Source of the DNA: Lentisphaeria bacterium
GTDB taxonomy: Bacteria; Verrucomicrobiota; Lentisphaeria; Victivallales; Victivallaceae
NCBI GenBank assembly: GCA_017450705.1
Contig: JAFSTC010000105.1
Coordinates: 1 to 49,402, forward strand
Length of the DNA: 49,402 nt
Direction: 5' to 3'
Part shown: piece after piece, positions 27,668 through 34,566 of the stretch
Layout: each line of letters begins with the position of its first letter
How positions within the stretch are numbered: position 1 is the stretch's first letter
Program-made: the position numbers and the translations under genes
The notes under the pieces: model-generated
What the model was told of the DNA's origin: nothing
The model's database searches: none
What the model saw: only the letters and a program-made list of their open reading frames with translations

Positions 27668-28407
27668 AGCTGCCAGCCGCCGGAGATGGAGATCTCGTTT
27701 CCGGTGATGTAGCCGGTATTTTCCGAGGAGAGGAAGGCGATGAGTTCGGCGCATTCCGCCGTCGTGCCGAAGCGGTGCATGGGGATCTCCCGGCGGAGTT
27801 CCTCCGCGAAGGCGGCGTCGGTGAGGGCGTTGGCGTTGCGGTCGGTTTCGATGACGCCGGGCAGGATGGTGTTGACCGTGATCCCGAAGGGGGCGTTTTC
27901 CATCGCGGCGGTTCTGGCGATGTTCATGAGTGCGGCCTTGGCGGCGCCGTAGACGGCCAGCCGGGAGGCGGGCTTGACCCCGTTGATGCTGCCGACGAAG
28001 ATCACTCTTCCCCAAGATTTTTTCCGCATTTCCGGGAGGAGTTCATGGAGCAGGATACAGGCGCTTGCCACGTTGGTCAGGAACATCCTGAGAAACTCAT
28101 CGGTGCTGAAATTGGCAAGTCCGGTGTAGCTTTGGACGGAGGCGTTGAGCACAAGGATATCGGGAAGGAGGCCGCGTGTTTTGACGGTGTCCGCGATTTT
28201 TTTTACCTCCTCTTCCCGGCCGAAATCGGCGGTGAGATACGTCGCGCCGCTGCCGGCTTCGGCGACGGCGGAGCGGAGATTGTCGCTCTCGCGCACGCCG
28301 TGGAAGATGACTTTTGCGCCGAGGGCGGCCAGTTTCAGTCCCGCCGCCCGACCGATGCCCCGGCTGGAACCTGTCACCAGCGCGGTTTTGCCTGAAAGAC
28401 CGTTCAT
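27664..28407 (-). CDS. Short-chain dehydrogenase/reductase
   Basis: This classical SDR of 247 residues has the NAD(P)-binding TGSSRGIGRAAG (near residue 13), LNAS at the NNAG position, catalytic Ser in VGSINGVKP, YGAAK for YxxxK and the substrate loop LPGVIETD. ISGGWQL is the usual C-terminus. Substrate unknown; it could oxidise a sugar or sugar acid released by the hydrolases of the operon. It overlaps RraA-like and lactonase genes by one and four bases, so the three are translated together. Confidence 0.92.
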   Translation of the reverse strand: MNGLSGKTALVTGSSRGIGRAAGLKLAALGAKVIFHGVRESDNLRSAVAEAGSGATYLTADFGREEEVKKIADTVKTRGLLPDILVLNASVQSYTGLANFSTDEFLRMFLTNVASACILLHELLPEMRKKSWGRVIFVGSINGVKPASRLAVYGAAKAALMNIARTAAMENAPFGITVNTILPGVIETDRNANALTDAAFAEELRREIPMHRFGTTAECAELIAFLSSENTGYITGNEISISGGWQL

Positions 28408-29162
28408 CAGAAATATCCGCCTTTGTCGATGATTTCGGAGATCGTGTCGCCCTGCCGGACCCAGCTGAAGATATCCACTTCGTTGCGTTCGATGCCCTCG
28501 GCGCGGAGAAGCACGTCATAAGCGATCTCGCGGGGGATGCACAGCACGCCGTCGATATCGCCGAAAATGATGTCGCCGGGGCGGACGGTAACCTTGCCGA
28601 TCCTGATCGGAACCTGATAATGCGTGATCATGCACCGGCCGAGGGAGCCGTTGCTGGTCCGGTACTTGTAGAAGACGGGGAAATTCTGTTCCAGGATCTG
28701 CTTGGTATCGCGGATCCCTCCGGCGATCACCGCGCCGCGGATGCCTTTGGTGATGGCCGTGGCGGTCATGACGCCGCCCCAGAGACTGGCTTCGGTATCT
28801 TCGCTGGTATCCCAGACCACCACGCCCTCGGGCCTGAAGTCGTCCAGCATCTGGGCCCGGAAGGTCATTTCTCCCTCGATCATGACGTTGGGGGCGCTCT
28901 TCACTGTGAAGGCTTCGCCGCAGAGGGTCATTTCATCCCGCAGGGGCATGATGTCGCTGGGGAGGTTCTGGTTCAGCAGAGTAAGTTCGCGCATGACGTC
29001 GTTGATGCACCCGGTATAGAGTTTTTCATAGCGGGAGCACAGCTCCCTGATCGGGATGGGGATCTCGCAATCCGGGATCCGCTGACGGCTTGCGATGAGT
29101 TTATCCAGTTTCATGAGCCCGGCCTCCTTGGCCTTGCCCCGCATGTCTTTCAAAGACGGCAT
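28407..29162 (-). CDS. RraA-family protein (aldolase-like)
   Basis: The 251-residue protein belongs to the RraA/HMG-aldolase family: ASLWGGVMTATAITKGIRGAV and GGIRDTKQILEQNFPVFYK hold the conserved G-G and R-D of the active site, and VRPGDIIFGDIDGVLCIP the D-x-D-G. Members are either RNase E regulators or metal-dependent aldolases/decarboxylases on oxalo or HMG-type substrates. Its length, above the 160 of true RraA, and its place in a sugar operon favour an aldolase or decarboxylase. AAGGA precedes the ATG. The stop and the next start share one base (TGATG). Confidence 0.85.
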   Translation of the reverse strand: MPSLKDMRGKAKEAGLMKLDKLIASRQRIPDCEIPIPIRELCSRYEKLYTGCINDVMRELTLLNQNLPSDIMPLRDEMTLCGEAFTVKSAPNVMIEGEMTFRAQMLDDFRPEGVVVWDTSEDTEASLWGGVMTATAITKGIRGAVIAGGIRDTKQILEQNFPVFYKYRTSNGSLGRCMITHYQVPIRIGKVTVRPGDIIFGDIDGVLCIPREIAYDVLLRAEGIERNEVDIFSWVRQGDTISEIIDKGGYF

Positions 29163-29248: not shown

Positions 29249-30292
29249 CTACGTTGTCTCCGGATTTTTCCACGCCTTGAAGACCTTCGCGGCGGCCTTG
29301 CCGTAAATGGTCCAGTCCTTGTTCCCCGCCGGATCATCCCGGAAGGAGGGGCGATCCAGCTGTTCATCCCATTTCCACCAGAAAAGCCCGCGCCACCAGT
29401 CGGTTGCTCCATAAACTTTCAGGACGGCCGAGAGATAATTCGCCTGTTCTTCTTCGTTGAAAGGCAATCCCTCACCGAAGCCATTCGAAAGGCCGCGGCA
29501 CTTGGCCTCCCATGCGTTGCTGGCGTGATGATAGGAACAAGTTCCGCATTCGCCGAAATAGCAGATCTTCGGATATTTTTCCCCGAACGCGATATACTGA
29601 TCGTTCCAGATCTTCATTCCCTCGATCATCTCGTCCACGGACGGCGTATGACCGTCCAACGGATAATTTTCCACTTGCGGGTAGGCGCTGAGCCCGAAGG
29701 AATCCAGTTCGCAATGCCAAAAATCGGGACAGTTGTCCTTCGTGTCAAGAACGGGCTTGATCGCGCTCATGACACAGGTCAGATGGCCGTGATAGACTTT
29801 TCTTGCCTCCTCGATGGTCTTGCGCCAGTGGGCATCCTGCGTGACGGTCTGATTGAGTTCGCTGTCCATGCAGTAGGCTTCGCATCCTGTCCGTTCGGCC
29901 AACTCGGCGAAGTGCCGGGTCAGCCTTTGGTAATTGGCGAACCAGTCCCGCCAGTAAGTCATCGGACGGCCCGGGATGACCTCCCCGTCGCCCGGGAATC
30001 CGATATTCATGCGCATACCGCCGTCCAGACATTGAAGCATGGGCCGGAGATATGTTTTCATGCCGGAAGCGTGGATCATGCGGACGGCTTCCGCGATCTC
30101 GTCGTCGGACGGAGAGAGTTCCACGTCCTGAAACTGCAGTGTGGAGTAAAAATGTTCCTGCCACATGGTCGCCACAAGACACACCCATTCCGCACCGGTC
30201 TCCGCCATTCGCCTGATCTCGGCGGCAGCGGCCTCTGAAGCCAAGTACCCGTGCGGGGCCATGAAACCGAAGGTCACACCCTTGAAAAACAT
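29249..30292 (-). CDS. GH113-like TIM-barrel glycoside hydrolase
   Basis: The 347-residue protein looks like a (beta/alpha)8 hydrolase related to GH113 beta-mannanases. It starts MFFKGVTFGF with GAEWVCLVATMWQEHF, has candidate acid/base Glu in CMDSELNQT (near residue 144) and candidate nucleophile Glu in ICYFGECGTCS (near 247), each at a strand end, and a tryptophan-rich active-site rim WWRGLFWWKWDEQL. No signal peptide is visible, so it may act inside the cell on oligosaccharides. The start is one base after the stop of the large secreted hydrolase, indicating coupling. Assignment to GH113 rests on the two Glu motifs and fold impression only. Confidence 0.72.
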   Translation of the reverse strand: MFFKGVTFGFMAPHGYLASEAAAAEIRRMAETGAEWVCLVATMWQEHFYSTLQFQDVELSPSDDEIAEAVRMIHASGMKTYLRPMLQCLDGGMRMNIGFPGDGEVIPGRPMTYWRDWFANYQRLTRHFAELAERTGCEAYCMDSELNQTVTQDAHWRKTIEEARKVYHGHLTCVMSAIKPVLDTKDNCPDFWHCELDSFGLSAYPQVENYPLDGHTPSVDEMIEGMKIWNDQYIAFGEKYPKICYFGECGTCSYHHASNAWEAKCRGLSNGFGEGLPFNEEEQANYLSAVLKVYGATDWWRGLFWWKWDEQLDRPSFRDDPAGNKDWTIYGKAAAKVFKAWKNPETT

Positions 30293-30293
30293 C

Positions 30294-33200
30294 TTATTTC
30301 CCCCTCATTTCGAGGATCACCGGCATCCGGGCCGGGATCTCCATTTTCAGGATCGTATTTCCCTGCCTCGTTTCGACAGCGTACTTCAGTTTTTCCGGAT
30401 AAAGCACCGTCATTTCTTTGTATGTGCCCGGAATTTCGAATTCCGCCCGATACGGCGCCGTTCCGATATTGTATGTGACGACCGCCCGGCTGTCGTCCCG
30501 CGCCTTCCAGAAGGTCGCGAAAAGTTCCGGGACCAGGAGCTCCCGGTAGGCCGGACCGTAGGACCGATTCCATTTGACCGGCAGTTCCCCGACGGGGGAA
30601 ACGATTGTCGGCGGCCGGAGCATTTCTCCGTAGATCAGGAATTTTTTTGCGCGGTTATAGGCTTCGTAACGGTGTTTCGTCGTCTCCTGCGCGATCTCCT
30701 TGTTTTTGTATTTGTAGAACAGATTCATGACCGCCCAGCCCGGTTTGACACCCCAGCAAAACGTCTGTGCGTGCTTTGCGACGAACCCCATGGCGTCTTT
30801 CTGTTCCACATCCTGAACCCCGGTCCATGCGCTGTACAGCAGAGTGTGGTCATGGTATACCGCGTGGATCATCGGGATCGCCGTAACGCGGTTTCCCTCG
30901 AGATACGCATTCGTGGTATTGCACACGAGAAACGCATCCAGACATCCGATATTGCCTTCCCAGAAACTTTCCGCGGTCGTGCAGAAATCCGGGCGCACTT
31001 TTCTTGCCCGTTCCCGGATATTTTTCAGCAAGTGCATATTTCCGTGAACGTACCCCAGGCCGCCGCCGGACTCCCTGCTGCAGGCCGGTGTGAAATTGAG
31101 GTAAGTCCCGCCGTGATTGCCGGAGTCAAGATAGGCCGCGTCAAAACCGTTTTCGGCCATTTGAACGACATGGTCTCCGAGAACCTTTTCCCAGAGCGGA
31201 CCGGGATAGGCGATACCGCGATTTCCTTTTGAGTTCTTCTCGCGGGGCCAGCAGATGAACTGACCGTGATAGTTGCGGACCATATTCTGCGCGGCATCCG
31301 GCTGGGATTTATAGGATTCCGAAGAATCCGGCCAGCTCGTGCACTGGATATATCCCATGACCTTGACATGGTTTTTATGAAAATGTTCGAGCATCGCCAG
31401 ATCGTCTTTCTGGAGCGGAAAGCGGTCCGGGCTGGCAACACTGTCCCCCGTCCGGCGGTCTTTGCCCCAGTAGAAAACCCACGCGCCGAGCTTGTAGGCT
31501 TTGTAATCCTGGATGAACCGGCTGTTTTTTGTCAAGGCCTCTTCCGGACTTCCCTGGAACCATTCATTCAGTTCTTTGAACCATACGGGGATATCCTTTC
31601 GGGCTTCCAGTTTCCCGTTGGCGCACCAGAATTGACGCAGCGCCCATTTCCGGTACATCATGCAGCCGTCATACCAGTCTCCGGAAAACGGACGGATCTG
31701 CGCCTGATAGGGCATCTCCCATGTCTGCGGGACGTGCCGCATATTATCGGGAATGTTGACGACATTCCAGGCAAGACCGTGCTCCCGGCTGCTCGCGACC
31801 CTCCAGCGTTTGGCGTACTGGGAGGGATCCGGCACGGCAAGATACAGGGAATCGTTTTTGTTGCTGAAAACGTCGAAGTGCATACTGTGACCGGACCGGT
31901 TCGGCTGAAAGATCACATTGCCGCCCAGCAATCCCTTGCGTACCGGATCGGCTATCAGGCGGCCGTTGAAAAACGGCGTTGCAAGCCGGTCCGCCGCGAA
32001 ATCTCCGCGCACGCCGCCGATCCCGTCCACGCACGGGCAATCGAAGTAGTAAACGGTGTATTCTTTTGAGCGATTGGAAAAACCTCCCTGAAAGGAACAG
32101 CTCCCGTCCTCCTCCATCGTGATCCGGACGGAGACGTCGAGGGCGTCCTTCTCATTCCCGACGCGGAGATTTTTCCACTCCATGACCAGCTGTTGCGGGG
32201 AGAGCTGCCGGACCGATGCCGTCCCGCCGAGTTGTTTCGTCTCGGCGGAGGACAGACGGATCATGCTCTTCGCATCCTCGCCGCCGTTCCCGCGGTCATC
32301 CTGTTCCGGATCGATGGTCAAGGTCGCATGCGTCGGCAGATTTTTTTTATCCGTTTTTATTTTGCGGAGTGTCACCGTCCACAAGATGCCGGAAGGCGTC
32401 ACATTCAGGAACTCGACGCCCTTTTCGTTGGCGAGACGTACCGCGCCGCCCCCCGCCGCCGGGTCGGCGAAGCCGTACGAGGTTTTCCCCTGCACCAGTG
32501 TATATTTTACTGCCGGTGTTTCAGAGGACTTTTTTTTTTCGGCGGTCAGAATGCAGTCCGAAATATCCGCTTCGCCCGTGGTGCGGAAACAGATGATCAT
32601 CCGTTGGCACCGTTCTGGAAGTTCGAAGGGAAGGGAAAGGTCCGTCCACTGATCGGGCGCTTCCATTTTTTTCAAATCCTGCATTACCGGAGCGGGACCG
32701 CCTTCATATCGTCCGATGCCGACGACAAGGATCCCTTTGCCGCGGACCCGGCATTTCAGCAGATAGGACGTGCCGTTTTTCCGGATGAAATCGGAACGGA
32801 AGAGCGCCGACGAATTCGTAGAACCGGTCACTCTGACATAAGTTATTTTTCCGAAAAATCCCTCTCCCGTCATTTGTTTGGCCGAGTCCTGATTCTTTTT
32901 CCACAAGACCCAGGCTCGCGGAAGACCTTGCGGATCGGCTTGAGCAAAGGACCCGTTGCGGAGCAGATTCCCCGCTTCGGTCGTTGCGGAACGAAGCGGT
33001 GTCGGCCGTTTTTTTGCTTTGGCGAGCTCCGGATTCCAGATCGCCCACAAATAGGAGGGATAATTCTCCCCCGTGACCGTTCCGGCGCCGGGCAGATTTG
33101 CTCCGAAGGTCAGACTGTCCCCGTAGCAGACGACTTTCTTCCCCGGGACAAAATTTTTTGCGATCTCCGCCGCAAGAGCCCGATAGCCCTCCGCCGTCAG

Positions 33201-33719
33201 GTGGACGCCGTCTTTCCCGCCCTTGTTCTTCAAGTTCCGGAGAAAACTCTCCGCCGACTCCCCGGTCCCGCCGTTCCGCATCACGAGGGCGTGCATATCG
33301 ATCAGGATCAGATTTTCCTCTTTCGCGAGCTTTCGGATCACGCCATTGTATTTGATGATCTTTTGATTCAGATTGCCCTTGTCCGGGTGATCCGGGAAAC
33401 GTCCCCGCAAATAGGACTCGATGATCGGACCGACCGTCAGGATCGCGATCTTTTTCACCCCCGATTTTTTCACCAGCCGGACGAGCTCGCGGTAGTTTTT
33501 GCCGAACTGTTCCGGGGACATCATCTGTTCCGGATTGACGGCGTCGTTCGTTCCGAATCCCAGAATGACCGTGTCGGGGCGGTAATCCGCCACGGAATCG
33601 TAAAAAGCATTGAGCGCATTCCGGGTGGACCACCCGCCCGTACCGGCGTTGCGCACCTGAGTTTCCGCCCAGACGAAACTCCCGCACAGGAGGAACAAAA
33701 GCAGCAGTTGTCTTTTCAC
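30294..33719 (-). CDS. Secreted SGNH-hydrolase plus DUF6259-type glycoside hydrolase
   Basis: The 1141-residue exported protein has a signal peptide (MKRQLLLLFLLCGSFVWAE). Residues about 20-220 are an SGNH/GDSL domain with blocks in unusual order: NAGTGG (24-29), GTND (56-59), DGVH (170-173), then YGDSLTFG (199-206), i.e. circularly permuted. A carbohydrate-binding-like beta domain (about 240-390) follows, then a DUF6259-type TIM barrel with possible catalytic carboxylates in DAAYLDSGNH (near 863) and TTAESFWEGN (near 917), and a C-terminal beta domain. It probably deacetylates and cleaves a polysaccharide. The start is GTG 33719 with GGAG upstream. Base composition is visibly lower in GC than in flanking genes. 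It follows the prepilin-like gene by 22 bases. Confidence 0.85.
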   Translation of the reverse strand: MKRQLLLLFLLCGSFVWAETQVRNAGTGGWSTRNALNAFYDSVADYRPDTVILGFGTNDAVNPEQMMSPEQFGKNYRELVRLVKKSGVKKIAILTVGPIIESYLRGRFPDHPDKGNLNQKIIKYNGVIRKLAKEENLILIDMHALVMRNGGTGESAESFLRNLKNKGGKDGVHLTAEGYRALAAEIAKNFVPGKKVVCYGDSLTFGANLPGAGTVTGENYPSYLWAIWNPELAKAKKRPTPLRSATTEAGNLLRNGSFAQADPQGLPRAWVLWKKNQDSAKQMTGEGFFGKITYVRVTGSTNSSALFRSDFIRKNGTSYLLKCRVRGKGILVVGIGRYEGGPAPVMQDLKKMEAPDQWTDLSLPFELPERCQRMIICFRTTGEADISDCILTAEKKKSSETPAVKYTLVQGKTSYGFADPAAGGGAVRLANEKGVEFLNVTPSGILWTVTLRKIKTDKKNLPTHATLTIDPEQDDRGNGGEDAKSMIRLSSAETKQLGGTASVRQLSPQQLVMEWKNLRVGNEKDALDVSVRITMEEDGSCSFQGGFSNRSKEYTVYYFDCPCVDGIGGVRGDFAADRLATPFFNGRLIADPVRKGLLGGNVIFQPNRSGHSMHFDVFSNKNDSLYLAVPDPSQYAKRWRVASSREHGLAWNVVNIPDNMRHVPQTWEMPYQAQIRPFSGDWYDGCMMYRKWALRQFWCANGKLEARKDIPVWFKELNEWFQGSPEEALTKNSRFIQDYKAYKLGAWVFYWGKDRRTGDSVASPDRFPLQKDDLAMLEHFHKNHVKVMGYIQCTSWPDSSESYKSQPDAAQNMVRNYHGQFICWPREKNSKGNRGIAYPGPLWEKVLGDHVVQMAENGFDAAYLDSGNHGGTYLNFTPACSRESGGGLGYVHGNMHLLKNIRERARKVRPDFCTTAESFWEGNIGCLDAFLVCNTTNAYLEGNRVTAIPMIHAVYHDHTLLYSAWTGVQDVEQKDAMGFVAKHAQTFCWGVKPGWAVMNLFYKYKNKEIAQETTKHRYEAYNRAKKFLIYGEMLRPPTIVSPVGELPVKWNRSYGPAYRELLVPELFATFWKARDDSRAVVTYNIGTAPYRAEFEIPGTYKEMTVLYPEKLKYAVETRQGNTILKMEIPARMPVILEMRGK

Positions 33720-33741: not shown

Positions 33742-34467
33742 TTAAAAACGATAGACCTGATCTTCCAGACAGCCCATCTCCACGATGGAAGCCAGTTCGG
33801 CCGCCCGCGCCGATCCGTCGGCGAACCACATATTCGCGTAATTGCCGTGCCGCGTATGGATCTTGTTCGCGTGGATTATCGCGGTGAAAAAAAGATTGCA
33901 TTGCGACTTGTTTGCGTCCGTCGTCTTGACGGAGTCGGAAAAAAGGAAAAATTTGCTCGGGGAGTACTCTTTTCCCGAACAGAGATCGCTTACCCGGGCC
34001 GCATTCACGCGGAAGTGCCTGTCCTGATAATCGGCGCCGCTCTTCGTCTGCGGACGCATCCCATACGTCCAGTAGGACCAGTTTGCATCGGTGTGAGGCC
34101 ACAAGGCGCTTCCCGGATATTGGGACGGGCAATAAAACACGTTGGAAACCCTGAGGAAATTTTCTTTGACCAGAACGTTGTTCCAGAGCTGCCGAGATGC
34201 TGCGCCGGGATAGTACTGCTGAACGGCGGGAGCATACCCTTTGAACGAGTCCGCATACATCAGCGTGGCCGTTCCGAGCTGTTTCATGTTGTTGAGGCAG
34301 TTGTTCGTGCGCCCCCTTTCACGGGCCTGCTGCAAAGCGGGCATGAGCATTGCGGCCAATATCGCGATGATGGCGATGACGACCAGAAGCTCGATCAGGG
34401 TGAAAACGCTCCGTCTTACCCGCTTGAGATCATGATTGCCGGAAGTGTGTGTGATTGTGTTCGACAT
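33742..34467 (-). CDS. Prepilin-type N-terminal domain protein with H-X9-DG C-terminus
   Basis: The 241-residue protein has a 20-residue basic leader followed by [12 protein letters not shown] and a hydrophobic helix, the type IV pilin/pseudopilin signature with Glu at +5. The residue before Phe is Val, not the usual Gly. Near the C-terminus [14 protein letters not shown] gives exactly His-X9-Asp-Gly, the prepilin-processing-associated motif. Proteins of this type are abundant in Lentisphaerota and Planctomycetota and are assumed to be surface or secreted; their function is unknown. AAAGGA lies before the ATG. First gene of the locus A operon, ahead of the giant hydrolase, so a role in its export or in substrate contact is inferred. 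Confidence 0.88.
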
Positions 34468-34493
34468 GACGCCATCCTTTCCGAAACGATTTG

Positions 34494-34503
34494 CCGATAT
34501 CGG
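34494..34503. promoter_or_regulatory. Palindromic operator candidate for locus A
   Basis: CCGATATCGG is a perfect 10-base palindrome flanked by TTTG and TTTT, about 30 bases downstream of the predicted transcription start of the prepilin operon. Position and symmetry suit a roadblock operator for the divergent LacI-type regulator; the centre is AT, unlike most LacI sites. Confidence 0.45.
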
Positions 34504-34537
34504 TTTTTTTGCGATTTTATGACCCGGTCCGCTGAAG

Positions 34538-34566
34538 AATATAAATTCCGGCAAATGAAAATGCAA
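34538..34566 (-). promoter_or_regulatory. Promoter of the locus A hydrolase operon
   Basis: TTGCAT (minus strand, 34561-34566), 17 bases, TATATT (34538-34543). It would drive the prepilin-like, SGNH/DUF6259 and downstream genes. Confidence 0.7.

Follow-up and report, generated by a model that had tools for sequence, protein, structure and literature searches.

The protein encoded on the minus strand at 30294..33719 of the window, i.e. the whole 49,402-nucleotide stretch of Lentisphaeria DNA analysed here, contains an SGNH (GDSL) hydrolase domain that is, with high confidence, a natural circular permutant of this fold. The canonical order of the catalytic blocks is S-G-N-H, with the GDS block first. 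Natural circular permutants, in which the order of the chain is altered and the active site is kept, are rare. Taken together, our results make it likely that the order G-N-H-S represents a second, independent permutation of the SGNH fold, which arose once and gave rise to a widespread secreted family (Bacteroidota, PVC phyla, Acidobacteriota and Fibrobacterota) with its own signature residues and a recurrent FAD-dependent oxidoreductase partner in polysaccharide loci, hidden in annotation as GDSL lipase.

Gene and domain organisation

From the N-terminus, the protein consists of a signal peptide, the permuted SGNH domain, a region without Pfam matches and a DUF6259 region. The features are as follows:

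30294..33719 (-), coding sequence, 1141 aa, GTG start (open reading frame, translation, Pfam)
33666..33719 (-), putative signal peptide MKRQLLLLFLLCGSFVWA, residues 1-18 (from the sequence: hydrophobic core and small terminal residue)
33018..33665 (approximate, -), predicted circularly permuted SGNH domain, residues 19-234, order G-N-H-S (AF2, Pfam, rotation scan)
33633..33650 (-), block II (Gly), NAGTGG, residues 24-29 (sequence)
33543..33554 (-), block III (Asn), GTND, residues 56-59 (sequence)
33201..33212 (-), block V (Asp and His), DGVH, residues 170-173 (sequence)
33102..33125 (-), block I (predicted nucleophile Ser202), YGDSLTFG, residues 199-206, behind the C-terminal strand (sequence; GDS invariant in 59 aligned members)
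33048..33071 (-), GENYPSYL, residues 217-224, beginning of the helix found after block I in the usual order (sequence, AF2)
30831..31718 (-), DUF6259 region (PF19773), residues 668-963 (Pfam, E 6e-32)

The positions of NAGTGG, GTND, DGVH and YGDSLTFG given in a first-pass annotation of the sequence were all verified in the translation, and the block order II, III, V and then I, which it had pointed out, is confirmed. The interval given there, 33070-33719, ends slightly before the last conserved element: the gene is on the minus strand and the domain spans about 33665..33018, with GENYPSYL ending near 33048 and the final helix near residue 234, or near 33018. Between the SGNH domain and the DUF6259 match lie about 400 residues without any Pfam match. 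The proposed joining to a DUF6259-type barrel holds for the Pfam assignment at residues 668-963, which lies well above the gathering cut-off (111.4 versus 28.7 bits). The barrel nature of this part was not confirmed, since the AF2 model of residues 241-1141 from five sequences, with alternating strands and helices, is of low confidence (pLDDT 52). A PDB sequence search with the DUF6259 region gave no match and hence no solved relative, and no paper naming DUF6259 was found in a literature search.

A search for homologues with the same block order, suggested in the first-pass annotation, yielded 86 distinct permuted relatives, comprising 65 stand-alone proteins, 16 with a C-terminal and five with an N-terminal partner. 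Since most of them stand alone, the window protein is a fusion built on a complete, independent permuted SGNH domain.

Evidence for circular permutation

The Pfam profile Lipase_GDSL_2 aligns its positions 34-178 to residues 21-181 of the window protein and leaves its first 33 positions, corresponding to block I, without a partner. When the sequences were de-permuted, the same profile aligned over positions 1-178 with a gain of 11-14 bits in all four cases tested, the window domain and three relatives. According to Pfam there is one GDS block only, and a second complete SGNH domain with its own GDS is absent.

A rotation scan was performed with an HMM built exclusively from 42 canonical SGNH sequences, against which 59 permuted domains were scored in rotations of two-residue steps. 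The best cut was located 7-10 residues before GDS in every one of the 59 domains, with gains of 22-45 bits (median 32). Shuffled-tail controls (295 trials) gained 1.5 bits on average and 8.2 bits at most, and canonical proteins obtained their top score unrotated or near the chain end. In the alignment of the 59 sequences, whose members are 25-43% identical to the window domain, block I is invariant at its C-terminal position; the invariant columns are G8, N40, D152, H155, G182, D183 and S184 (add 18 for the full protein). The unusual block order of the window domain is therefore not due to chance, given the rotation scan with its shuffled-tail controls and the invariance of the C-terminal block I in 59 members. 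The domain has the full set of blocks (I, II, III and V), including the Ser, Gly, Asn and His (and Asp) residues, and they follow each other as G-N-H-S instead of S-G-N-H. The domain thus belongs to the SGNH/GDSL superfamily by homology and fold, not by block order.

Predicted structure

A structure prediction had also been proposed in the first-pass annotation. AF2, supplied with the 59-sequence alignment, modelled the SGNH part as a single compact unit with a mean pLDDT of 96.9 and a pTM of 0.92. In model numbering (add 18 for the full protein), the elements follow each other as beta-2, alpha, beta-3, helices, beta-4, helices, beta-5, the post-DxxH helix (158-171), beta-1 (177-182) and helices (202-216), and the linker from the post-DxxH helix to beta-1 comprises only about 5 residues. 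The alpha/beta/alpha fold of the superfamily is present: the best PDB fold match is 1yzf (Z 16.8, 1.9 A over 151 residues), and the 50 PDB entries listed, with Z of 12.7 or more, are ordinary SGNH enzymes. The leading matches cover model residues 1-176, paired with chain residues from about 39 onward, as would be expected for a permutant that is aligned sequentially. Among the best rows of the PDB sequence and fold searches there was no chain in permuted order, and sequential aligners cannot display a permuted alignment.

The suggestion that the N-terminal strand and helix had been moved to the C-terminus is thus supported by the rotation scan, the fold prediction and the many stand-alone relatives. 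The first strand would have been relocated to the C-terminal end together with the catalytic GDS loop and the next helix, behind the post-DxxH helix, so that the chain would begin straight at the strand of block II, with fold and active site presumably unchanged. The pTM is high, and Ser, His, Asp, Asn and Gly are conserved together, from which we infer that the active site is formed in cis from Ser202, His173 and Asn58. Here, Ser202 would act as nucleophile, His173 and Asp170 would complete the triad, and Gly and Asn58 would form the oxyanion hole.

Comparison with known SGNH enzymes

Canonical SGNH/GDSL enzymes (PF13472, PF00657; 1yzf, 4iyj, 7ddy AlAXEase, Axe2) have the four blocks GDS, Gly, GxND and DxxH in common with the window class, as well as the alpha/beta/alpha fold over model residues 1-176, at about 20-27% identity; they differ in being S-G-N-H instead of G-N-H-S. 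The residues N62, R107, N165, G213 and P221 are conserved in the permuted class and mostly absent from the canonical rows compared.

SGNH-type active sites with permuted blocks, as in the window class, are known from AlgJ/AlgX, PatB1 (DHHW family) and WssI: the blocks run H-S-G-N in AlgJ, AlgX and PatB1, where Tyr replaces the Asn of AlgJ/AlgX, and H-S-G-D in WssI (PMC9487903, PMC4148444, PMC10302187). However, the cut in these proteins lies between blocks III and V, whereas in the window class it lies between I and II. The Asn of block III, replaced by Tyr or Asp in AlgX/AlgJ and WssI, is kept in the window class, and while the known proteins have extra elements such as a cap, the window class has canonical motifs. 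In place of the H-S-G-N(Y) order of AlgX/AlgJ (PMC9487903, PMC4148444) the window domain has G-N-H-S, and instead of a block III Tyr and a DxH block V it has conserved Asn58 and DGVH (DxxH). PatB1 has KDS/DHHW motifs; the KDS block I and TDHHW block V of its family are replaced by canonical GDS and DGVH. The NCBIfam model of the AxeA1 acetylxylan esterase (NF042968) was matched by 54 of the 59 members, but the window domain scored far under the cut-off of that family (32 of 700 bits) and is not a member.

Neither Pfam nor NCBIfam contains a model specific for the G-N-H-S class, and none of the PHROG and PDB entries found has such an order. In the literature on circularly permuted SGNH/GDSL proteins, in which subscription journals were thinly covered so that a prior description is possible, we found H-S-G-N cases only. 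The question raised in the first-pass annotation, whether this class has been described, can thus be answered in part: permutation in SGNH proteins is known, and G-N-H-S is a different permutation for which no described family was found.

Distribution of the permuted class

Among 165 collected loci, 103 open reading frames are permuted, some of them copies of one locus, and 49 are canonical. The two forms are distinguished by the position of GDS relative to the match start, about 155-192 residues after it in the permuted and about 23-54 before it in the canonical form. In a class-wide search of 198 genomes, permuted matches extended to model position 214-219, nearly all with E < 1e-40 (one short fragment had 1e-28), whereas canonical matches ended at about 174 with E near 1e-26, leaving an E-value gap between both groups. 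Further permuted members are encoded elsewhere in the window's own genome and in other genomes of the same order.

A collection of 84,980 genomes, each representing one species, was scanned with an alignment query. The use of the single window domain as query on the genome contigs gave no match, whereas the alignment query did find members. Since the scan pattern was C[LFI]GDS[IL]T[YFH]G, the sample is biased towards members with an intact block I. The matches listed include permuted members from at least Lentisphaerota, Verrucomicrobiota, Kiritimatiellota, Planctomycetota, Bacteroidota, Acidobacteriota and Fibrobacterota, and the cultured carriers among them include Victivallis vadensis DSM 14823, Terriglobus roseus DSM 18391 (a complete sequence), Chitinophaga varians, Cellulophaga baltica and Neorhodopirellula pilleata. 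Searches of PHROGs and BFVD gave matches mostly within the domain body and no clear permuted viral family. One permuted gene (L121, IMGVR_UViG_3300028595_000028) lies on a contig catalogued as viral, which is perhaps host DNA. A plasmid search with the Bacteroidota form gave no match.

Some members deviate from the consensus. In the window's own genome, the permuted protein L004 (G000:C94:40919-41479) has lost the catalytic residues (GDD, GTVD, DGIR), as has the permuted domain of L035 (GGE, GRDD); judged from these motifs, both are likely pseudoenzymes. L004 is located about 2.3 kb from L003, a member that stands alone and has kept GDS and DGIH. In L003 and L024, GDS, GTND and DGIH are intact and block II is altered, with RSVPGKP or KSAPGRP instead of NxGxxG.

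Alternative explanations and origin

The known permuted SGNH proteins are those of the AlgJ/AlgX/PatB1 group, and one relative has a weak ALGX Pfam match (E 1.4e-5), so that the domain could be an acyltransferase of this kind instead of an esterase. This is clearly unlikely in view of the block order, G-N-H-S versus H-S-G-N, of the canonical block III Asn and DxxH spacing in place of Tyr and DxH (PMC9487903), and of the profile and fold neighbours, most of which are ordinary esterases or acylhydrolases, acetylxylan esterases among them. In another reading, two chains swap the C-terminal strand and helix, with block I acting in trans and an active site made from two subunits. Although a terminal strand is easily swapped and dimers are compatible with the data, the monomer is modelled with confidence over its whole length (pTM 0.92) and the short linker of about 5 residues before beta-1 favours packing in cis, which renders an exchange between subunits very unlikely.

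The window originates from a fragmented genome of 117 contigs; yet the chance of an assembly or annotation artefact is negligible, with G-N-H-S present in many independent genomes including those of Victivallis vadensis DSM 14823, Terriglobus roseus DSM 18391 and Chitinophaga species. In a decaying tandem, the C-terminal GDS block would be what is left of a second, truncated SGNH domain, and the first domain would have lost its own block I; this reading is extremely unlikely. Tandem canonical SGNH proteins do exist in the genus of the window, namely L162 and L159, open reading frames of 542 aa with two SGNH matches each. However, the permuted unit occurs alone in 65 relatives, its GDS is invariant in 59 divergent members, unlike in decay, and none of the open reading frames classified in the 165 loci has block I on both sides.

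The usual source of such a permutation is a tandem duplication whose two outer parts are subsequently lost. The tandem canonical domains of the same genus indicate that the raw material for such a duplication-and-trimming route exists, and the G-N-H-S permutant may have emerged in this way; no intermediates were found among the collected proteins. When a tree was built from de-permuted and canonical sequences after removal of long branches, a branch with a modest support of 75 had the 83 permuted rows on one side. A larger tree placed one long-branched canonical row within the permuted group. A single origin of the G-N-H-S class is the simplest reading, and the class probably arose once.

Gene neighbourhood and proposed function

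The SGNH gene is surrounded by the following genes:

29249..30292 (-), GH113 glycoside hydrolase, 347 aa, next gene, probable operon (Pfam E 7e-62; starts beside the stop codon)
28407..29162 (-), RraA-like aldolase gene (Pfam E 1e-32)
33742..34545 (-), DUF1559 / N-methylation-motif (pseudopilin-like) gene (Pfam; its end lies about 22 nt ahead of the SGNH gene)

The DUF1559-type gene is apparently in one operon with the SGNH gene. Further neighbours with Pfam matches are LacI, AraC and Gfo/Idh genes, and these surroundings form a carbohydrate-use region. Within the loci scanned, permuted genes of Bacteroidota lie near GH95, alpha-L-fucosidase, sulfatase, SASA and SusC/SusD-type genes. Given such neighbourhoods, and nearest profiles and folds that are mostly those of ordinary esterases and acylhydrolases including acetylxylan esterases, the most likely role for the window domain is that of a secreted carbohydrate O-acetyl (acyl) esterase. 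It would act like a normal secreted SGNH esterase via an acyl-enzyme mechanism and may take O-acetyl or similar acyl groups off a polysaccharide that is attacked by the DUF6259 region and GH113. For carbohydrate O-acetyl groups as the actual substrate, the neighbourhood suggests roughly even chances, and acetylated mannan is a guess based on the GH113 neighbour.

A gene with the FAD_oxidored motif DV[IV][IV]YGGTSAA[IV] was found fused to the permuted gene or within about 1.5 kb of it in at least 19 loci (18 from Bacteroidota, one from Planctomycetota). Same-strand pairs are present in L054, L056, L062, L065, L066, L070, L072, L073, L075, L077, L080, L081, L084, L088, L092, L094, L099, L100 and L112. 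Pfam confirmed PF12831 in the five loci tested (L054, L055, L056, L062 and L066); L054, the locus of Neorhodopirellula pilleata, encodes the fusion of the permuted SGNH domain to PF12831. This pairing suggests a joint step in glycan processing.

Implications

The G-N-H-S permutant belongs to one of the large esterase superfamilies and occurs in cultured species. The class is easily overlooked, as profile tools report a GDSL lipase and silently drop the block with the catalytic serine; with a dedicated profile, many polysaccharide-utilisation genes would be annotated correctly. Together, the S-G-N-H and G-N-H-S forms provide a natural pair of topologies for probing the role of strand order in folding and evolution, and the recurrent pairing with FAD_oxidored genes hints at an uncharacterised step in glycan breakdown.
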